DNA of 64,000 nt from Bacteroidota bacterium. Its GTDB lineage: Bacteria; Bacteroidota; Bacteroidia; Bacteroidales; Lentimicrobiaceae. Each line of letters begins with the position of its first letter. Within the stretch, counting starts at the first letter, position 1. The translations under genes and the position numbers were made by a program. This document shows, piece after piece, positions 19,260 through 23,815 of this stretch. The notes beneath the pieces are model-generated. The model ran no database searches. It was given only the letters and a program-made list of their open reading frames with translations, and was not told the origin of the DNA. The stretch lies in contig WSXU01000003.1 in NCBI GenBank assembly GCA_009773455.1, positions 190,834 through 254,833 on the forward strand. The letters are read 5' to 3'.

Positions 19260-20018
19260 TCATCCGGTAAAACCTTTCGGGGATTCTTTTTGATCACCTG
19301 TTGTATCTGTGGACTGTTGTTCAACAGCGGTGGAGGTGGAACTACTGCCAAACGGCATTGTTGTTTTATCCTCCTGTGCCCAGTAAGGAGTGGTGCCGGT
19401 TTCCTCTTCCTCAGCTTCATCTTCAGGCCATTCATATACTTTTTTCTGGGGCCCGCTGTTCCGGTAGACATAGGCAAGTAATACCCCTGCTATGATTCCC
19501 ATCAGGTGCGATTCCCACGAAATGTTCCTTTCAGGGAAAAAGTCGGGAAATATGCCCCAAACCATACTTCCATAGAGGAAAATGACCAGAAGGCTGAAAG
19601 CCATTAACCTGGGTTCACGGCGGATGATTCCGCTTACAAAGTGAAAGGCTGCAAGGGCATATACAACACCACTTGCTCCGATGTGATAGTGGTCGCCCCT
19701 CGCAAACAACCACACCCATAGTCCGGTAAGGAGCCAGGAATAGATGAATATTCGGATTGCTTCTTTTTTGTAATAATACATCAGTGCTGAACCAAGAACA
19801 AAAAGCGGGGCAGAATTGGCAGAAAGATGTGCCAGATCGGCATGAAGCAGGGGTGAAAACAGTATGCCCGGAAGTCCTTTTGCCTTCAAAGGGAGCAGGC
19901 CGAGAAAGGCAAAAGAAACACCTGACATCATTTCAGTCAGCTTGATAACCCACATTATGGCTACAATCAACGTAAAAACTGCTACTGAAACAGTAAGCCG
20001 TCGCTTATCATCCTGCAT
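19260..20018 (-). CDS. Rhomboid-family intramembrane serine protease
   Basis: 252 residues from the ATG at 20018 (MQDDKRRLTVSVAVF); the frame is open 14 codons further. Six membrane helices are visible. The rhomboid marks are HADLAHLSAN (His59, His64, Asn68), the nucleophile Ser116 in HIGASGVVYA, and His171 in SHLMGIIAGV, so the Ser-His dyad is intact. The C-terminal 60 residues are an acidic, Ser/Thr-rich cytoplasmic tail. Substrates cannot be predicted. It sits 88 bp after the DUF5777 gene on the same strand. Confidence 0.9.
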   Translation of the reverse strand: MQDDKRRLTVSVAVFTLIVAIMWVIKLTEMMSGVSFAFLGLLPLKAKGLPGILFSPLLHADLAHLSANSAPLFVLGSALMYYYKKEAIRIFIYSWLLTGLWVWLFARGDHYHIGASGVVYALAAFHFVSGIIRREPRLMAFSLLVIFLYGSMVWGIFPDFFPERNISWESHLMGIIAGVLLAYVYRNSGPQKKVYEWPEDEAEEEETGTTPYWAQEDKTTMPFGSSSTSTAVEQQSTDTTGDQKESPKGFTG

Positions 20019-20105: not shown

Positions 20106-21005
20106 TTATCTGGGTTCCGGTGCAGCTGGTTTCCTGATGGTAAATACCCTGCTGATGTTAAACCCGAAATAGATGTCGCCATTTTGCCATTTCCCGGTTG
20201 TTTTGGTAATCAGGCCACGGTCAAACATGGGCTGGGCGTTTGAAAAATGCAGCTGAAAAACATGTCCCCCGGTTTCAATGTCAAATCCGACCGAAAGCGG
20301 ATTTTCGGAATTATCAGCTACGGATCCGGGCAAAATATAGAAATATTCAGCGTTAAAGCTGACCCTTTGGGTGATTTTGTACCGTCCGCCAATGCCGGCA
20401 GCATAGGTATCATTATCCTCTGATGCTGTGGCAACCAAATTCCTGTGAATAAATGTCGGAGTAATTTGCAAAGAAAAGCTATTACTGAATTTCCGGGCGA
20501 TCAGAACCTGGTTCACAAAAGACAATCTTGATGAAAAGTAATTCTTCCTTTCGGGATATTGCCATTTCATTGAATTGAGATCCATCGAAGTAAACAGGGT
20601 AAGCGTTATTGGCATATTTCTAGCTCCTTTTGATTGTCTGAGGACTTTTGCTTTCAGAAAACCATCATAGGTCTTTTCATAGGAGCTCCGGCCGACGCCA
20701 ACACTGAGGAAATTGGTCAGTCCATATTCAAGTCCGATCCTGATGGTAGAATTGTCAAGTCCGAAAAGCTCATATCCGCCTGAGTTGATTTTTCCAAAAT
20801 TATGGGAAATCATAAACAGGAGTACACCGTTGGCGGGATTTTCAACAGAATGACCACTGACTACCCTGGTTGTCTTGAAAGTAGCATAGGTGTAATCTGT
20901 AATGGGTTCTTCTTTTCCGAAAACATCCATAAGGTCCTGTGAAACTGAAACCAAAGGCATTGAGAAAATCAGAAAAAGAGAAAGGGGTATTGCTAATTTT
21001 TTCAT
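20106..21005 (-). CDS. DUF5777-family outer-membrane beta-barrel protein
   Basis: 299 residues from the ATG at 21005, with signal peptide MKKLAIPLSLFLIFSMPLVSVSQ. Alternating strands run to the C-terminus: TTRVVSGHSVENPANGVLLF, ISHNFGKINSGGYELFGLDN, GLEYGLTNFLSVGVGRSSYE. These are the hallmarks of DUF5777 barrels. It closes a five-gene minus-strand cluster with heme-motif lipoproteins; the 19-bp gap to the preceding gene points to one operon. A barrel plus surface or periplasmic hemes suggests a passage for electrons or a docking platform, which is inference. Confidence 0.85.
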   Translation of the reverse strand: MKKLAIPLSLFLIFSMPLVSVSQDLMDVFGKEEPITDYTYATFKTTRVVSGHSVENPANGVLLFMISHNFGKINSGGYELFGLDNSTIRIGLEYGLTNFLSVGVGRSSYEKTYDGFLKAKVLRQSKGARNMPITLTLFTSMDLNSMKWQYPERKNYFSSRLSFVNQVLIARKFSNSFSLQITPTFIHRNLVATASEDNDTYAAGIGGRYKITQRVSFNAEYFYILPGSVADNSENPLSVGFDIETGGHVFQLHFSNAQPMFDRGLITKTTGKWQNGDIYFGFNISRVFTIRKPAAPEPR

Positions 21006-21024
21006 TTGTCGCAGTTTGTGTTGC

Positions 21025-21429
21025 TTAATTCTGAGGTGCACCCTGATTAATCCAGGCATCAATTTTCAATAATTCACAAGTAGAAAGCTTGTTGCCACCC
21101 TTTGGCATTGGTGAAGCTCCGCTCTCATGGTTAATTGCCTTCCTGAAGGCTCCGCTGTTAATGGCAGTTTTCAGACCGTCGTAAGTGCTGGTTATCACAT
21201 TGCCCGAAGGGGATGCTTCGCTGTGACAGCTGTTGCAGTTCGATGCCAGCAAGGGTGCGACGTAACCACTGTAGGTAATACCGGTTGTATCGCATTGTCC
21301 GCCGGGTAATTCAGGATAAAGATATTCTTCACTGTCGTAATAGCAGGAAGATACCATCAATGAAATTACACTGAAAGCAACCATTTTAATAAGGTTACTT
21401 ATAATTCTGTCAGTTGTTGGGCGCTCCAT
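21025..21429 (-). CDS. Small lipoprotein with one CxxCH heme motif
   Basis: 134 residues from the ATG at 21429, overlapping the preceding gene by 20 bp; an ATG at 21384 is an alternative start. The signal peptide ends in a lipobox with Cys29 (SLMVSSC). One CNSCH heme-binding motif (Cys65, Cys68, His69) lies in a c-type-cytochrome domain ending PMPKGGNKLSTCELLKIDAWINQGAP. It corresponds to the second domain of the two larger lipoproteins of the cluster. Confidence 0.8.
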   Translation of the reverse strand: MERPTTDRIISNLIKMVAFSVISLMVSSCYYDSEEYLYPELPGGQCDTTGITYSGYVAPLLASNCNSCHSEASPSGNVITSTYDGLKTAINSGAFRKAINHESGASPMPKGGNKLSTCELLKIDAWINQGAPQN

Positions 21430-22114
21430 TGTCGATCCAGTTTTTAATTTGGGTGATATTGCAGTCAGTAAGCCTGATGCCATCTTTCGGCATCGGGGAA
21501 TATCCCGGAAGCCAGGCAACTGATCCGTAAAGGGAATTATTGTCAACTGCTGCCCTGATGGTAGTGTAGTCTTCAAGCCTTATTCCTCCCGAGGGTTCAT
21601 TGCCACTATGGCAACCCCTGCAGTTGGTTGAAATAAGCGGATAGATGTCAGCTGCAAATGTGAAGTTTTCCGGACTGCATGCTTCTGTACAGTAATTGTA
21701 CAAAGCTCCCTGATCAATCCATTTTGCTATAATGGCCTTTTGTTCAGACGTAAACTCAGCATAGGGTGAAGGGGGCATTTTGGATTCACCGTTTTTGGAA
21801 AGTACTTTATAAAGTCTGCTGCTCCCAGAGTTGCCTGGCTTAACCCCTCCTGTAATCTTTATCCGGTAATAATCGGTAAGAATTATTCCATTCTGGGCTG
21901 TTCCCATATCATGACAGCCTGCTTTGGCGCAGGATGATTTTATCAGTGGCAGGACACTGTTGATAAAATATACTGAATCCTGATCACAGGTATTCGACGG
22001 AGCCGGAAGGTCTGGATTTACCGGGAAATCAGAAAAATCAGTTTCATGTCTGCACTGAATGAAAACCAGGACAGACATGATAATTGCCAACGGCACAATA
22101 ACTCTCTTCAACAT
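21410..22114 (-). CDS. Two-domain heme-motif lipoprotein (PSCyt1-like)
   Basis: 234 residues with lipobox Cys21 (VLVFIQC). Domain 1 carries the uncommon motif CAKAGCH (Cys62, Cys67, His68, four residues between the cysteines) and a SKMPPSP methionine that could be the second heme ligand, then IIAKWIDQGA. Domain 2 carries CRGCH (Cys165, Cys168, His169) and PMPKDG. The repeats resemble planctomycete-type cytochrome domains. It is probably exported and tethered to a membrane by lipid; redox activity is inferred, not shown. Confidence 0.82.
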   Translation of the reverse strand: MLKRVIVPLAIIMSVLVFIQCRHETDFSDFPVNPDLPAPSNTCDQDSVYFINSVLPLIKSSCAKAGCHDMGTAQNGIILTDYYRIKITGGVKPGNSGSSRLYKVLSKNGESKMPPSPYAEFTSEQKAIIAKWIDQGALYNYCTEACSPENFTFAADIYPLISTNCRGCHSGNEPSGGIRLEDYTTIRAAVDNNSLYGSVAWLPGYSPMPKDGIRLTDCNITQIKNWIDNGAPNN

Positions 22115-22190
22115 TTTCGTTTATTTGATGCGGGTCGTAAGAGAAGCGAATTGTCTATGTTTTTATTTCCTGAATGCGGCAGAGCATCAG

Positions 22191-22985
22191 TTAGTTTATA
22201 ATCAGTTTCTCATTTATTGTGCCGTCAGGAGTTGTTAACCTGAGAATGTAATAACCCGGTTTAAGGTTATTCGAAATGCGAACCGATTGTCTGCCGGCAT
22301 TTAGTTCACCCTCGTAAAGTGTTTCCTGCTTCTGCCCGTTTAAATTATAGGCGTCGGCGATCACACGTCCGCTGGTATTGAGATTGATTTCAGCAAAGAT
22401 AAGCTTTCCGGCGGGATTCGGGTAAATCCGGGTGTTTGTTTTGACCGCATTTTCGATACCAACACTGAAATTTTCGTTCAGAACCAGCGAGGACAGTCCT
22501 ACATTTGGCTGACTGATAACCCTGGCGATATACATGGTAACAGTACCAGTGCCGGGGGCCGGTGCTGTCCACTGAAAATTCCAGGTTTTGGTTGCAGCGG
22601 TGCTTGCCTGTGAATGGGTGATGTACTTGCCGTTCCCGTTAAGCAAAGTTCCCGAACCTGCAATGAGTGTTCCAAGTTGGGTGCCGGCAACATTCTGTGG
22701 CGAAGCCTGAAATCCTTTACGGCCGTTTCCGGTCAGGGTCACGGTAAAATTATAAGTGGAACCGGCCACATAGCCGGTTTCAGGTACATCAGAAGTAAGA
22801 ACTCCTGTAACATTGGTAGCTGTTCCTCCGTGGCAAATGGTGCAGTTTTTTGCATCACCGGGCGATCCGGTATGGCCTGCTGGGGCTCCGGTAGGGTATT
22901 TAAGGCCGGTGTCACCAGAGAACGACTGGGTTAATGAAACAATGGCCAATAACAATGGGATTGCTATAAAGTAACGGGCTTTCAT
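22191..22985 (-). CDS. T9SS-sorted protein with CxxCH and reeler/choice-anchor-like domain
   Basis: 264 residues from the ATG at 22985, with signal peptide MKARYFIAIPLLLAIVSLTQ. A single CTICH motif (Cys48, Cys51, His52) follows the segment PTGAPAGHTGSPGDAKN. Residues 60-175 form a beta-sandwich like reeler domains (YVAGSTYNFTVTLTG, GTGTVTMYIARV). The last about 75 residues (RIYPNPAGKLI ... GYYILRLTTPDG) are a type A T9SS sorting domain, so the protein is probably released or anchored on the cell surface. That makes it the outermost heme-motif protein of the cluster. Confidence 0.85.
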   Translation of the reverse strand: MKARYFIAIPLLLAIVSLTQSFSGDTGLKYPTGAPAGHTGSPGDAKNCTICHGGTATNVTGVLTSDVPETGYVAGSTYNFTVTLTGNGRKGFQASPQNVAGTQLGTLIAGSGTLLNGNGKYITHSQASTAATKTWNFQWTAPAPGTGTVTMYIARVISQPNVGLSSLVLNENFSVGIENAVKTNTRIYPNPAGKLIFAEINLNTSGRVIADAYNLNGQKQETLYEGELNAGRQSVRISNNLKPGYYILRLTTPDGTINEKLIIN

Positions 22986-23083
22986 GGGTTTGTGTATTGG
23001 TGATTTATTAATATTATCTTGTCTGTGAGCCGTTTTCCTGATGAATGGAAAAGTTAACAAAGGTTTGGCACTTCAACGGAACA

Positions 23084-23815
23084 TCAGTTGTTGGGAGAAC
23101 CATCTGCTATCCATTTTCTGATCTGGATAATTGTACAATCGGGCAATTTATTTCCACCCTTTGGCATAGGGCTGTATCCCTGCTGGTGACTCACGGCTCC
23201 GAAAAGGCTGCCATTGTCGGCAGCTGACTTAACCGATGAATAATCATCAAGCCTGACTCCTCCTGAAGATGAAAATGCATTGTGACATCCTTTGCAATTG
23301 TTTTCTATAACAGGCTTTACAGCACCTGAATAAGTAAAATTGCTGGTATCGCAACCGGCATCGCAGTAATTGTTACGGGCACCCTGTTCTATCCATTTCC
23401 GGATCAGCAGAATCTGGTCGGTCGACAGTGCACTTGCCGGTGGCGGTGGCATTCTTTCATCGGTTTCACTTTCGGTAATGGCTTCATATAGCTTGCTGCT
23501 TCCCGGATTGCCCGGAATAATTTCAGCGGTATTCATAACCGACTGATAGGAAGTGAGAATAACACCTTCCTGGGCAGTTGAGCCATCATGACAGCCTGAC
23601 ATTCCGCAACTGGAGATCAGCAATGGCAACACATCGTTACGGAAATAAACCGTATCCGGATCGCATGATAAACCGTCGGGGATGGTGTCAATGGGGGGAA
23701 TTGGGTCTACAATGACGATTTCTTCAGGTTCATGTTTGCAGGAAATGAGAACGATCAGAAATGGTAAAAACAGGATCAATACTGTTTTGAAAAGTAATGC
23801 TGATTTAAATTTCAT
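23084..23815 (-). CDS. Two-domain heme-motif lipoprotein (PSCyt1-like), first gene of cluster
   Basis: 243 residues, lipobox Cys26 (IVLISC). Domain 1 has CGMSGCH (Cys70, Cys75, His76) and RMPPPPASALSTDQ; domain 2 has CKGCH (Cys174, Cys177, His178) and PMPKGGNKLPDC. It is clearly a paralogue of the protein encoded at 21410-22114, with the same order of motifs and the same C-terminal DNG-SPNN/GAPNN ending. It is the first gene of the cluster and diverges from the S41 protease gene. No consensus promoter was found in front of it. Confidence 0.82.
   Translation of the reverse strand: MKFKSALLFKTVLILFLPFLIVLISCKHEPEEIVIVDPIPPIDTIPDGLSCDPDTVYFRNDVLPLLISSCGMSGCHDGSTAQEGVILTSYQSVMNTAEIIPGNPGSSKLYEAITESETDERMPPPPASALSTDQILLIRKWIEQGARNNYCDAGCDTSNFTYSGAVKPVIENNCKGCHNAFSSSGGVRLDDYSSVKSAADNGSLFGAVSHQQGYSPMPKGGNKLPDCTIIQIRKWIADGSPNN

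Follow-up and report, generated by a model that had tools for sequence, protein, structure and literature searches.

A DUF5777 outer-membrane barrel and its small heme proteins: a candidate electron port in Bacteroidota

Introduction

What might five closely spaced genes, four for small heme-motif proteins and one for an outer-membrane barrel, do together in the envelope of a Bacteroidota bacterium? The genes occupy the minus strand at 20106-23815 of a 64,000-nt stretch of contig WSXU01000003.1 (assembly GCA_009773455.1; hereafter the window, with positions numbered from its first letter) in a genome of 4.8 Mb and 159 contigs. In order of transcription they encode a diheme lipoprotein (1), a protein with a choice-of-anchor V domain and a sorting tail of the type IX secretion system (T9SS), a second diheme lipoprotein (2), a monoheme lipoprotein and a beta-barrel of the DUF5777 family, to which the Pfam title assigns no function. 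The cluster appears, from comparison of gene neighborhoods, to be the local copy of a phylum-wide module: a little-studied set of small heme proteins and a barrel, widespread in Bacteroidota, that probably moves electrons between the inside of the envelope and the surface. The coupling of cytochrome and barrel is well supported and electron transport across the outer membrane is likely; the complete reading, a small outer-membrane cytochrome-barrel electron port that is Cyc2-like in its working but is not a Cyc2, we regard as about an even chance.

Results

Conservation of the gene neighborhood

DUF5777 was present in 153 of 395 sampled Bacteroidota genomes and in none of 14 control genomes. 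We read the neighborhoods of 80 named loci, the best 80 of at least 589, several of which end at contig ends; because they are the best-scoring, they are biased to types close to that of the window. They are titled Bacteroidales, Flavobacteriales, Chitinophagales, Saprospiraceae, Pontibacter, Rufibacter, Hymenobacter and others. On the same strand and less than 4 kb from DUF5777, relatives of the monoheme lipoprotein stood in 73 of these loci, YceI lipocalins in 61, OB-fold proteins (PF12869 type) in 59 and relatives of the diheme lipoproteins in 55, with all four partners together in 38; the corresponding numbers were 0, 0, 1 and 0 on the opposite strand and 1, 17, 0 and 0 at 4 kb or more on either strand.

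A systematic sample of 50 loci was drawn by taking every third row, to row 145, of the phylum-wide DUF5777 match list (49 loci) and adding one chosen locus, G081; L192 was lost in processing and is counted as a miss, and L187 is cut at a contig end. Here YceI was on the same strand at 43 loci, the monoheme relative at 34, the OB-fold gene at 15, the diheme relative at 5 and any open reading frame (ORF) with a CX2-4CH motif at 36, against 1, 1, 1, 0 and 1 on the opposite strand. The diheme and OB-fold genes are thus less general than the monoheme and YceI genes, a difference that may in part reflect models trained on the 80 loci. The co-occurrence of DUF5777 with heme lipoproteins beyond this genome, proposed as a check in an earlier note made from the window's letters, is thus borne out in both samples. 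That note had also treated the five genes as a set: they do belong to a conserved module, but the set is incomplete, since the genes for YceI and the OB-fold protein lie at another place in the genome, and its T9SS gene is accessory.

Natural fusions of cytochrome and barrel

A functional link between cytochrome and barrel gains further support from natural fusions of the two. At locus L254 one ORF of 421 amino acids (aa) encodes a cytochrome domain (approximately residues 54-150, with CAQAGCH and QMP) followed by DUF5777 (residues 171-420); this first fusion was the one case of CXnCH among 231 DUF5777 domain hits, with overlapping loci counted more than once. The L254 protein was searched against 244 genomes of its class, which is not that of the window, and matched in 148, mostly as the barrel alone; six further fusions were 52-56% identical to it, aligned from residue 25-50 to residue 419-421 of 421 and free of internal stops. 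The seven fusions come from seven genera in four families (f49, f80, f81 and f68) and all carry CX4CH and a Met-Pro pair (MP), and an eighth candidate, in G519, is cut by a contig end inside the barrel. Their N-termini, judged by eye, mostly look like ordinary signal peptides, with a lipobox-like stretch possible in L265 and L268; L266 starts at a contig end. Even-stranded barrels have both ends facing the periplasm, which would be expected to place the fused cytochrome at the periplasmic mouth. One protein in seven genomes of another class is good evidence that the monoheme cytochrome and the barrel work together.

The fusion class also carries separate cytochromes. In G070, G521, G524, G527 and G519 a further cytochrome-domain match lies no more than about 0.3 kb downstream of the gene for the fusion or the barrel, and the separate lipoprotein cytochromes beside fusion genes (L295, L296 and L297) and beside a barrel-only gene (L299) begin C-E-H, much as the diheme proteins of the window begin C-K-H and C-R-H. 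At L296:370-7450 and L297:1175-8137 a single run encodes the fusion, an NHL protein, a C-E-H lipoprotein cytochrome, an unknown protein of 342 or 327 aa and a MauG-type diheme peroxidase; the L296 run, the one scanned for these genes, also encodes MbnP and a molybdopterin oxidoreductase.

It might be argued that the five genes are simply envelope genes lying side by side with no joint function, and the five-gene version that includes the choice-of-anchor V gene is indeed found in few relatives; set against the phylum-wide same-strand linkage and the natural fusion, we consider this explanation very improbable.

Type II clusters

The window genome has a second DUF5777 gene, at G000:C151:66000-85900 (L032), in a cluster with multiheme cytochromes and b561 that we call type II, the window's cluster being of type I. 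It encodes a monoheme lipoprotein, DUF5777, a cytochrome c, a heptaheme protein, a b561-like protein, a pentaheme lipoprotein with an MtrC/MtrF-like domain, another cytochrome c and a NapC/NirT-type cytochrome, and it is likely an extracellular electron transfer locus. Most Pfam names of type II genes, that of the pentaheme lipoprotein among them, were obtained on L046, a relative in the genus; a divergent 228-aa gene stands beside the L032 cluster, and its 230-aa counterpart at L046 encodes a Crp/FNR-type regulator.

In all nine type II loci read (L032, L045-L051 and L063) a monoheme lipoprotein lies upstream and a protein with seven CxxCH motifs downstream of DUF5777; b561 is present in eight, the ninth (L050) being cut by a contig end, and YceI was not seen in the type II neighborhoods listed. 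The type II monoheme proteins are more variable, with Met at the distal position in some and His in others (judged by eye). A heptaheme neighbor as the mark of any divergent DUF5777 was ruled out, as none of 21 further low-scoring loci (of 22 found) had one. Types I and II share the monoheme lipoprotein and the barrel and likely differ in the electron donor; that the donors swap between the two types is a main reason for taking the monoheme-barrel pair as the electron-handling core.

The heme proteins as probable class I cytochromes

The window's heme proteins look like real class I cytochromes c, with a CXnCH site followed by a distal Met. Among 73 monoheme relatives, all have CX2-4CH and, at least 20 residues on, a later Met-Pro; the spacing is CX2CH in 61, CX3CH in 3 and CX4CH in 9. 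At least two heme sites were present in 50 of 55 diheme relatives (the other five show one), and in all 50 an MP follows both the first and the second site. When 28 monoheme proteins were aligned (the window's and 27 of the 71 relatives fetched), little or no variation was seen in the lipid Cys, the residues of the heme site, the MP or two additional Cys, and by analogy with class I cytochromes c, Met108 is likely the distal heme ligand. Across the 80 loci CX2-4CH occurred in 127 of 424 near same-strand ORFs, compared with 1 of 232 near ORFs on the opposite strand and 9 of 338 ORFs farther away (4 kb or more). The heme motifs are therefore not chance, being kept in both families and enriched in the near same-strand ORFs. 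The window genome has three matches to the cytochrome c assembly family PF01578, one of them with an internal stop.

The diheme relatives have a mark of their own: a His at +3 after the lipid Cys in 29 of the 30 (of 55) with a recognised lipobox, which may act as a heme ligand, as a sorting signal or in docking.

Signals that may point to the surface

From the lipid Cys onward the monoheme lipoproteins have a sequence in common, C-Y-Y-D-x-E-E-x-L-Y-P. At least three of the residues from +2 to +8 are acidic in 46 of the 51 monoheme relatives (of 73) with a recognised lipobox, in 2 of 30 diheme relatives and in 4 of 46 other lipoproteins of the same loci. The lipoprotein export signals of Bacteroidetes include C-X-K-(D/E)2-X, SDDDD and SDDFE in the available text of PMC5080379, and by its sequence the acidic monoheme motif resembles these surface-export signals without being identical to them.

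A second pointer outward comes from T9SS-tailed CxxCH proteins, which account for 9 of 692 near (less than 3 kb) same-strand ORFs and 2 of 1177 others (p 0.003, with related loci taken as independent), as detected with an iterated tail model that started from four tails. Three unlike kinds are represented: choice-of-anchor V proteins (L052 and L230), proteins with an FRVxQIPNG CxxCH domain (L238, L241, L242 and L245) and proteins with a cytochrome-like domain and a tail (L085, L103 and L210). Five of the nine were checked with NCBIfam models, and L238, L242 and L245 scored over the TIGR04183 cut-off and L230 and L085 below it. With three unlike kinds adjoining DUF5777, such genes seem to have been recruited repeatedly, and that of the window looks like one case of this and not like a core part. 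As a core part the choice-of-anchor V gene was rejected: among the matches listed it stood beside DUF5777 (judged by eye) only in the window and in G081, and in the genus also at L037 and L052.

The FRVxQIPNG proteins beside DUF5777 form a T9SS-tailed family of 541-549 aa that starts with FRVxQIPNG, followed by CxxCH (L238:7764-9398, L241, L242:4224-5873 and L245:5310-6956). The choice-of-anchor V family is present in 88 of 296 sampled genomes, and the window genome, which has 150 scored T9SS tails, encodes a second such protein (a 513-aa frame with a T9SS tail match at G000:C12:147489-147896) away from DUF5777.

YceI and the quinone question

The YceI and OB-fold genes missing from beside the window's DUF5777 lie on another contig (C20), the OB-fold gene first and then YceI. 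A PF12869 match was found in 13 of 19 genomes of the genus, with YceI, among the matches listed, close by on the same contig and strand in all 13 and the pair on a contig other than that of DUF5777 in 12; in G001, a genome of two contigs, at least about 1.4 Mb separates the pair from each DUF5777. No b561 was recognised near the window genome's OB-YceI pair by single-sequence search, a weak method. A YceI gene is listed in iron-limited Riemerella in the accessible part of PMC5429918.

The prominence of YceI suggests a different role, in which the system is an envelope antioxidant or quinone-recycling device: YceI would bring quinone to the outer membrane and quench lipid radicals there, and the cytochromes and barrel would relay or remove electrons, none of which leave the cell, as has been proposed for the pair of BcnA (a YceI protein) and LcoA (a b561) of Burkholderia. 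In the systematic sample no partner is commoner than YceI, which also stands at 19 of the 21 further divergent loci, and named carriers such as Hymenobacter, Pontibacter, Rufibacter and Salibacter are aerobes. The available text of PMC9113575 adds that bcnA and lcoA mutants have more lipid peroxidation and that an isoprenoid or ubiquinone-8 is present in most structures of YceI proteins. Yet BcnA-LcoA, in the portion of its description available, comes with neither an outer-membrane barrel nor c-type cytochromes, in the genus of the window YceI lies away from the barrel operon, type II has multiheme cytochromes and no YceI in its listed neighborhood, and the T9SS-tailed CxxCH neighbors point outward; on balance we think this role rather unlikely.

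The barrel

The DUF5777 barrel, modelled from the window's protein with 77 relatives, is predicted to have 12 strands (predicted local distance difference test, pLDDT, 92.1; predicted template modelling score, pTM, 0.83). The closest solved folds are KdgM (Z 18.0; root-mean-square deviation 2.0 over 167 residues), FapF (Z 17.9) and NanC (Z 17.5). OMPLA (Z about 12) and LpxR (Z 15.7) were also among the matches, but below KdgM, and an enzyme reading was set aside. From the alternation of the strands, conserved charged or polar residues, D114, K118, Q166, E220, D242 and E244 among them, would face the lumen. Longer open frames with DUF5777, of 388-473 aa, which may hold a second domain, occur at G206:C2 (L149), G427:C1:1270235, G489:C121 and G565:C53.

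The nearest folds are themselves 12-stranded channels, and the barrel could instead pass a substrate, a metal ion or small organic molecule that the cytochromes on the periplasmic face oxidise or reduce, which would be redox-coupled uptake and not a wire. The fusion order, with the cytochrome before the barrel, and the MbnP and MauG-type genes beside one fusion would fit such uptake, and Cyc2 is itself thought to admit Fe2+ into its pore, according to the available part of PMC8406198. The conserved charged residues inside, however, suggest a tight lumen, and uptake needs no T9SS-tailed CxxCH proteins beside the barrel; we give uptake the same low standing as the antioxidant role.

The prediction of a complex, which the earlier note had put forward as a check, failed to dock the pair with confidence. 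The monoheme lipoprotein and barrel of L052 were folded as one chain, with the stop codon read as Gly, the barrel's signal peptide as the linker and no heme (55 of 69 monoheme and 12 of 66 barrel rows in the alignment). The pTM of 0.67 is close to our own estimate for an undocked pair (about 0.62; about 0.85 if docked), so docking is unsupported. Fold searches with this model returned barrels alone and thus did not probe the cytochrome part.

Genes and coordinates of the window cluster

All five ORFs and their motifs (Table 1) were recovered by translation and profile scans, in agreement with the earlier description of two two-domain heme lipoproteins, a one-motif lipoprotein, a T9SS CxxCH protein and a barrel on one strand. 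The gaps in order of transcription are 98, 76, -20 and 19 bp, so that the 20-bp overlap and 19-bp gap first reported are exact, and the supposed paralogy of the two-domain proteins agrees with their 46% identity. The second domain of diheme lipoprotein 1 is likewise 46% identical to the monoheme lipoprotein, and diheme lipoprotein 2 groups with the second diheme copy of L052 (Bacteroidales bacterium UBA5537), the closest named relative found (DUF5777 76% identical; very near records may be left out).

Table 1. Features of the heme protein and barrel cluster in the window.
Feature	Position	Strand	Remarks
Diheme lipoprotein 1	23084-23815	-	243 aa; lipobox Cys26 then K-H-E-P; CX4CH then CXXCH, MP after each; PSCyt1 E 1.2e-14
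His28 codon, diheme lipoprotein 1	23732-23734	-	His at +3 after lipid Cys (C-K-H-E/D-P)
T9SS-tailed CxxCH protein	22191-22985	-	264 aa from ATG; choice-of-anchor V domain and type A sorting domain; accessory
Diheme lipoprotein 2	21410-22114	-	234 aa; CX4CH then CXXCH; paralogue of diheme lipoprotein 1
Monoheme lipoprotein	21025-21429	-	134 aa; C-Y-Y-D-S-E-E-Y-L-Y-P after lipobox; core member; start overlaps preceding gene by 20 bp
CXXCH heme site of monoheme lipoprotein (residues 65-69)	21223-21237	-	C65, C68 and H69 invariant in 28 aligned rows
Met108 codon of monoheme lipoprotein	21106-21108	-	invariant in 28 aligned rows; likely distal heme ligand
DUF5777 beta-barrel	20106-21005	-	299 aa; 12 strands in predicted model; core member

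The barrel matches PF19089 at 323.2 bits (cut-off 23.1, E 1.2e-96, profile positions 1-247). The T9SS protein matches choice-of-anchor V (NF041895) at 80.2 bits (cut-off 42) and the type A tail (TIGR04183) at 39.7 bits (cut-off 23), as expected of T9SS cargo. The monoheme lipoprotein reaches 18.4 bits with Pfam Cytochrome_CBB3, below the cut-off of 27, and the window's lipoproteins score 52.9, 43.8 and 14.9 with the LIC11213 family (NF047812), all below its cut-off of 100. An S41 peptidase gene lies upstream of the cluster on the opposite strand, and a rhomboid protease gene (19260-20018) lies directly 3' of DUF5777 in the window and at seven loci of the same genus. A sigma-70 promoter scan found 7 sites with 8.0 expected from shuffles, Bacteroidota promoters being outside the model, and a terminator scan found 6 with 3.8 expected.

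Discussion

Taken together, these results suggest an outer-membrane core made of the 12-stranded DUF5777 barrel and a class I monoheme cytochrome, held there by a lipid anchor in the window and by fusion in another class. The diheme lipoprotein, with its His at +3, and sometimes a T9SS-exported CxxCH protein would lengthen the chain of hemes, probably as far as the cell surface. Electrons would come from the periplasm, in type I probably via the YceI lipocalin as quinone carrier and in type II probably via cytochrome b561 and the heptaheme cytochrome, and the barrel would bring the hemes on its two faces close enough for exchange with an outside substrate or mineral, as in the single-heme Cyc2. 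We infer the covalent heme, the physical complex in the split form, the membrane side of each lipoprotein, and the direction, partner and purpose of electron flow. A broader generalization, in which DUF5777 and the monoheme cytochrome make up an unrecognised trans-outer-membrane port with interchangeable donors (YceI-bound quinol, or b561 and heptaheme) and with the lipoprotein and T9SS heme proteins on the outside, we offer only tentatively.

Several observations weigh against the electron port. The monoheme relative was not seen at 16 of the 50 systematic loci (L192 and L187 included, and some with other CxxCH genes). In 17 of the 80 loci YceI also matches at a distance of 4 kb or more, so that YceI is common around DUF5777 genes anyway, and the 21 other divergent DUF5777 loci lack the heptaheme neighbor of type II and mostly carry YceI. 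The fusion is rare in its class, being present in 7 of the 148 genomes that matched, and close barrel-only relatives occur there too (G522:C93 and G368). The two indications of membrane side disagree, the acidic motif suggesting the surface and the fusion suggesting the periplasmic mouth. Because so many conserved charged residues appear to face the lumen, it may be closed in the modelled barrel, with no room for heme, and the fused-chain model did not dock with confidence. The redox chain or docking complex through the outer membrane that the earlier note had proposed stands in part: the cytochrome-barrel link is upheld by co-occurrence, by the fusions and by T9SS CxxCH neighbors in other lineages, while the chain is something we still infer and the docking found no confident model.

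If the electron port is real, extracellular electron exchange would be much commoner in Bacteroidota than thought, and would be carried out by a device far smaller than Mtr; because the fusion occurs naturally, one purified protein would be enough for a direct test. Some of the genera that carry DUF5777 are aerobes for which no exchange of electrons with the surroundings is known. Our literature search, which covered few subscription papers and preprints, found no paper naming DUF5777, none on choice-of-anchor V, none on YceI with beta-barrel, cytochrome and Flavobacterium and one on LIC11213, and related terms gave no title or abstract start that describes this gene set.

Comparison with known systems

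The known families nearest in sequence are LIC11213 (NF047812) and PSCyt1 (PF07635), which resemble the cytochrome domains of the lipoproteins; neither model describes a barrel partner, and the NF047812 scores are below cut-off. BcnA-LcoA is alike in linking a YceI lipocalin to a cytochrome and unlike in that its cytochrome is a b561, with no DUF5777 and no c-type lipoproteins in the available part of its description; its hallmark, YceI next to b561, is absent from the window's five genes, which include neither.

MtrCAB, MtoAB and PioAB likewise encode a barrel and cytochromes together, and type II adds to the likeness with its heptaheme cytochrome and MtrC/MtrF-like pentaheme lipoprotein. In those complexes a decaheme cytochrome is enclosed by a 26-stranded barrel, according to the portion of PMC8406198 available, whereas the window cluster has no 26-stranded barrel and the type I clusters read have no multiheme protein.

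Cyc2, the fused cytochrome-porin that acts as an Fe(II) oxidase, is the remaining comparison. Its barrel is predicted to have 16 strands, unlike the 12 of the DUF5777 model, and is of a different family. In the window the cytochrome, a lipoprotein, and the barrel are separate genes, and they are a single polypeptide in the seven genomes of another class. The Cyc2 motif AXPXFAR[Q/K][T/Y], as given in the accessible text of PMC8406198, is absent upstream of CXXCH in the window's monoheme lipoprotein. The same text has the Cyc2 cytochrome proposed at the periplasmic mouth of its barrel. What the two have in common is a small cytochrome domain combined with an outer-membrane barrel, and the DUF5777 fusions keep the order of Cyc2, with the cytochrome first.

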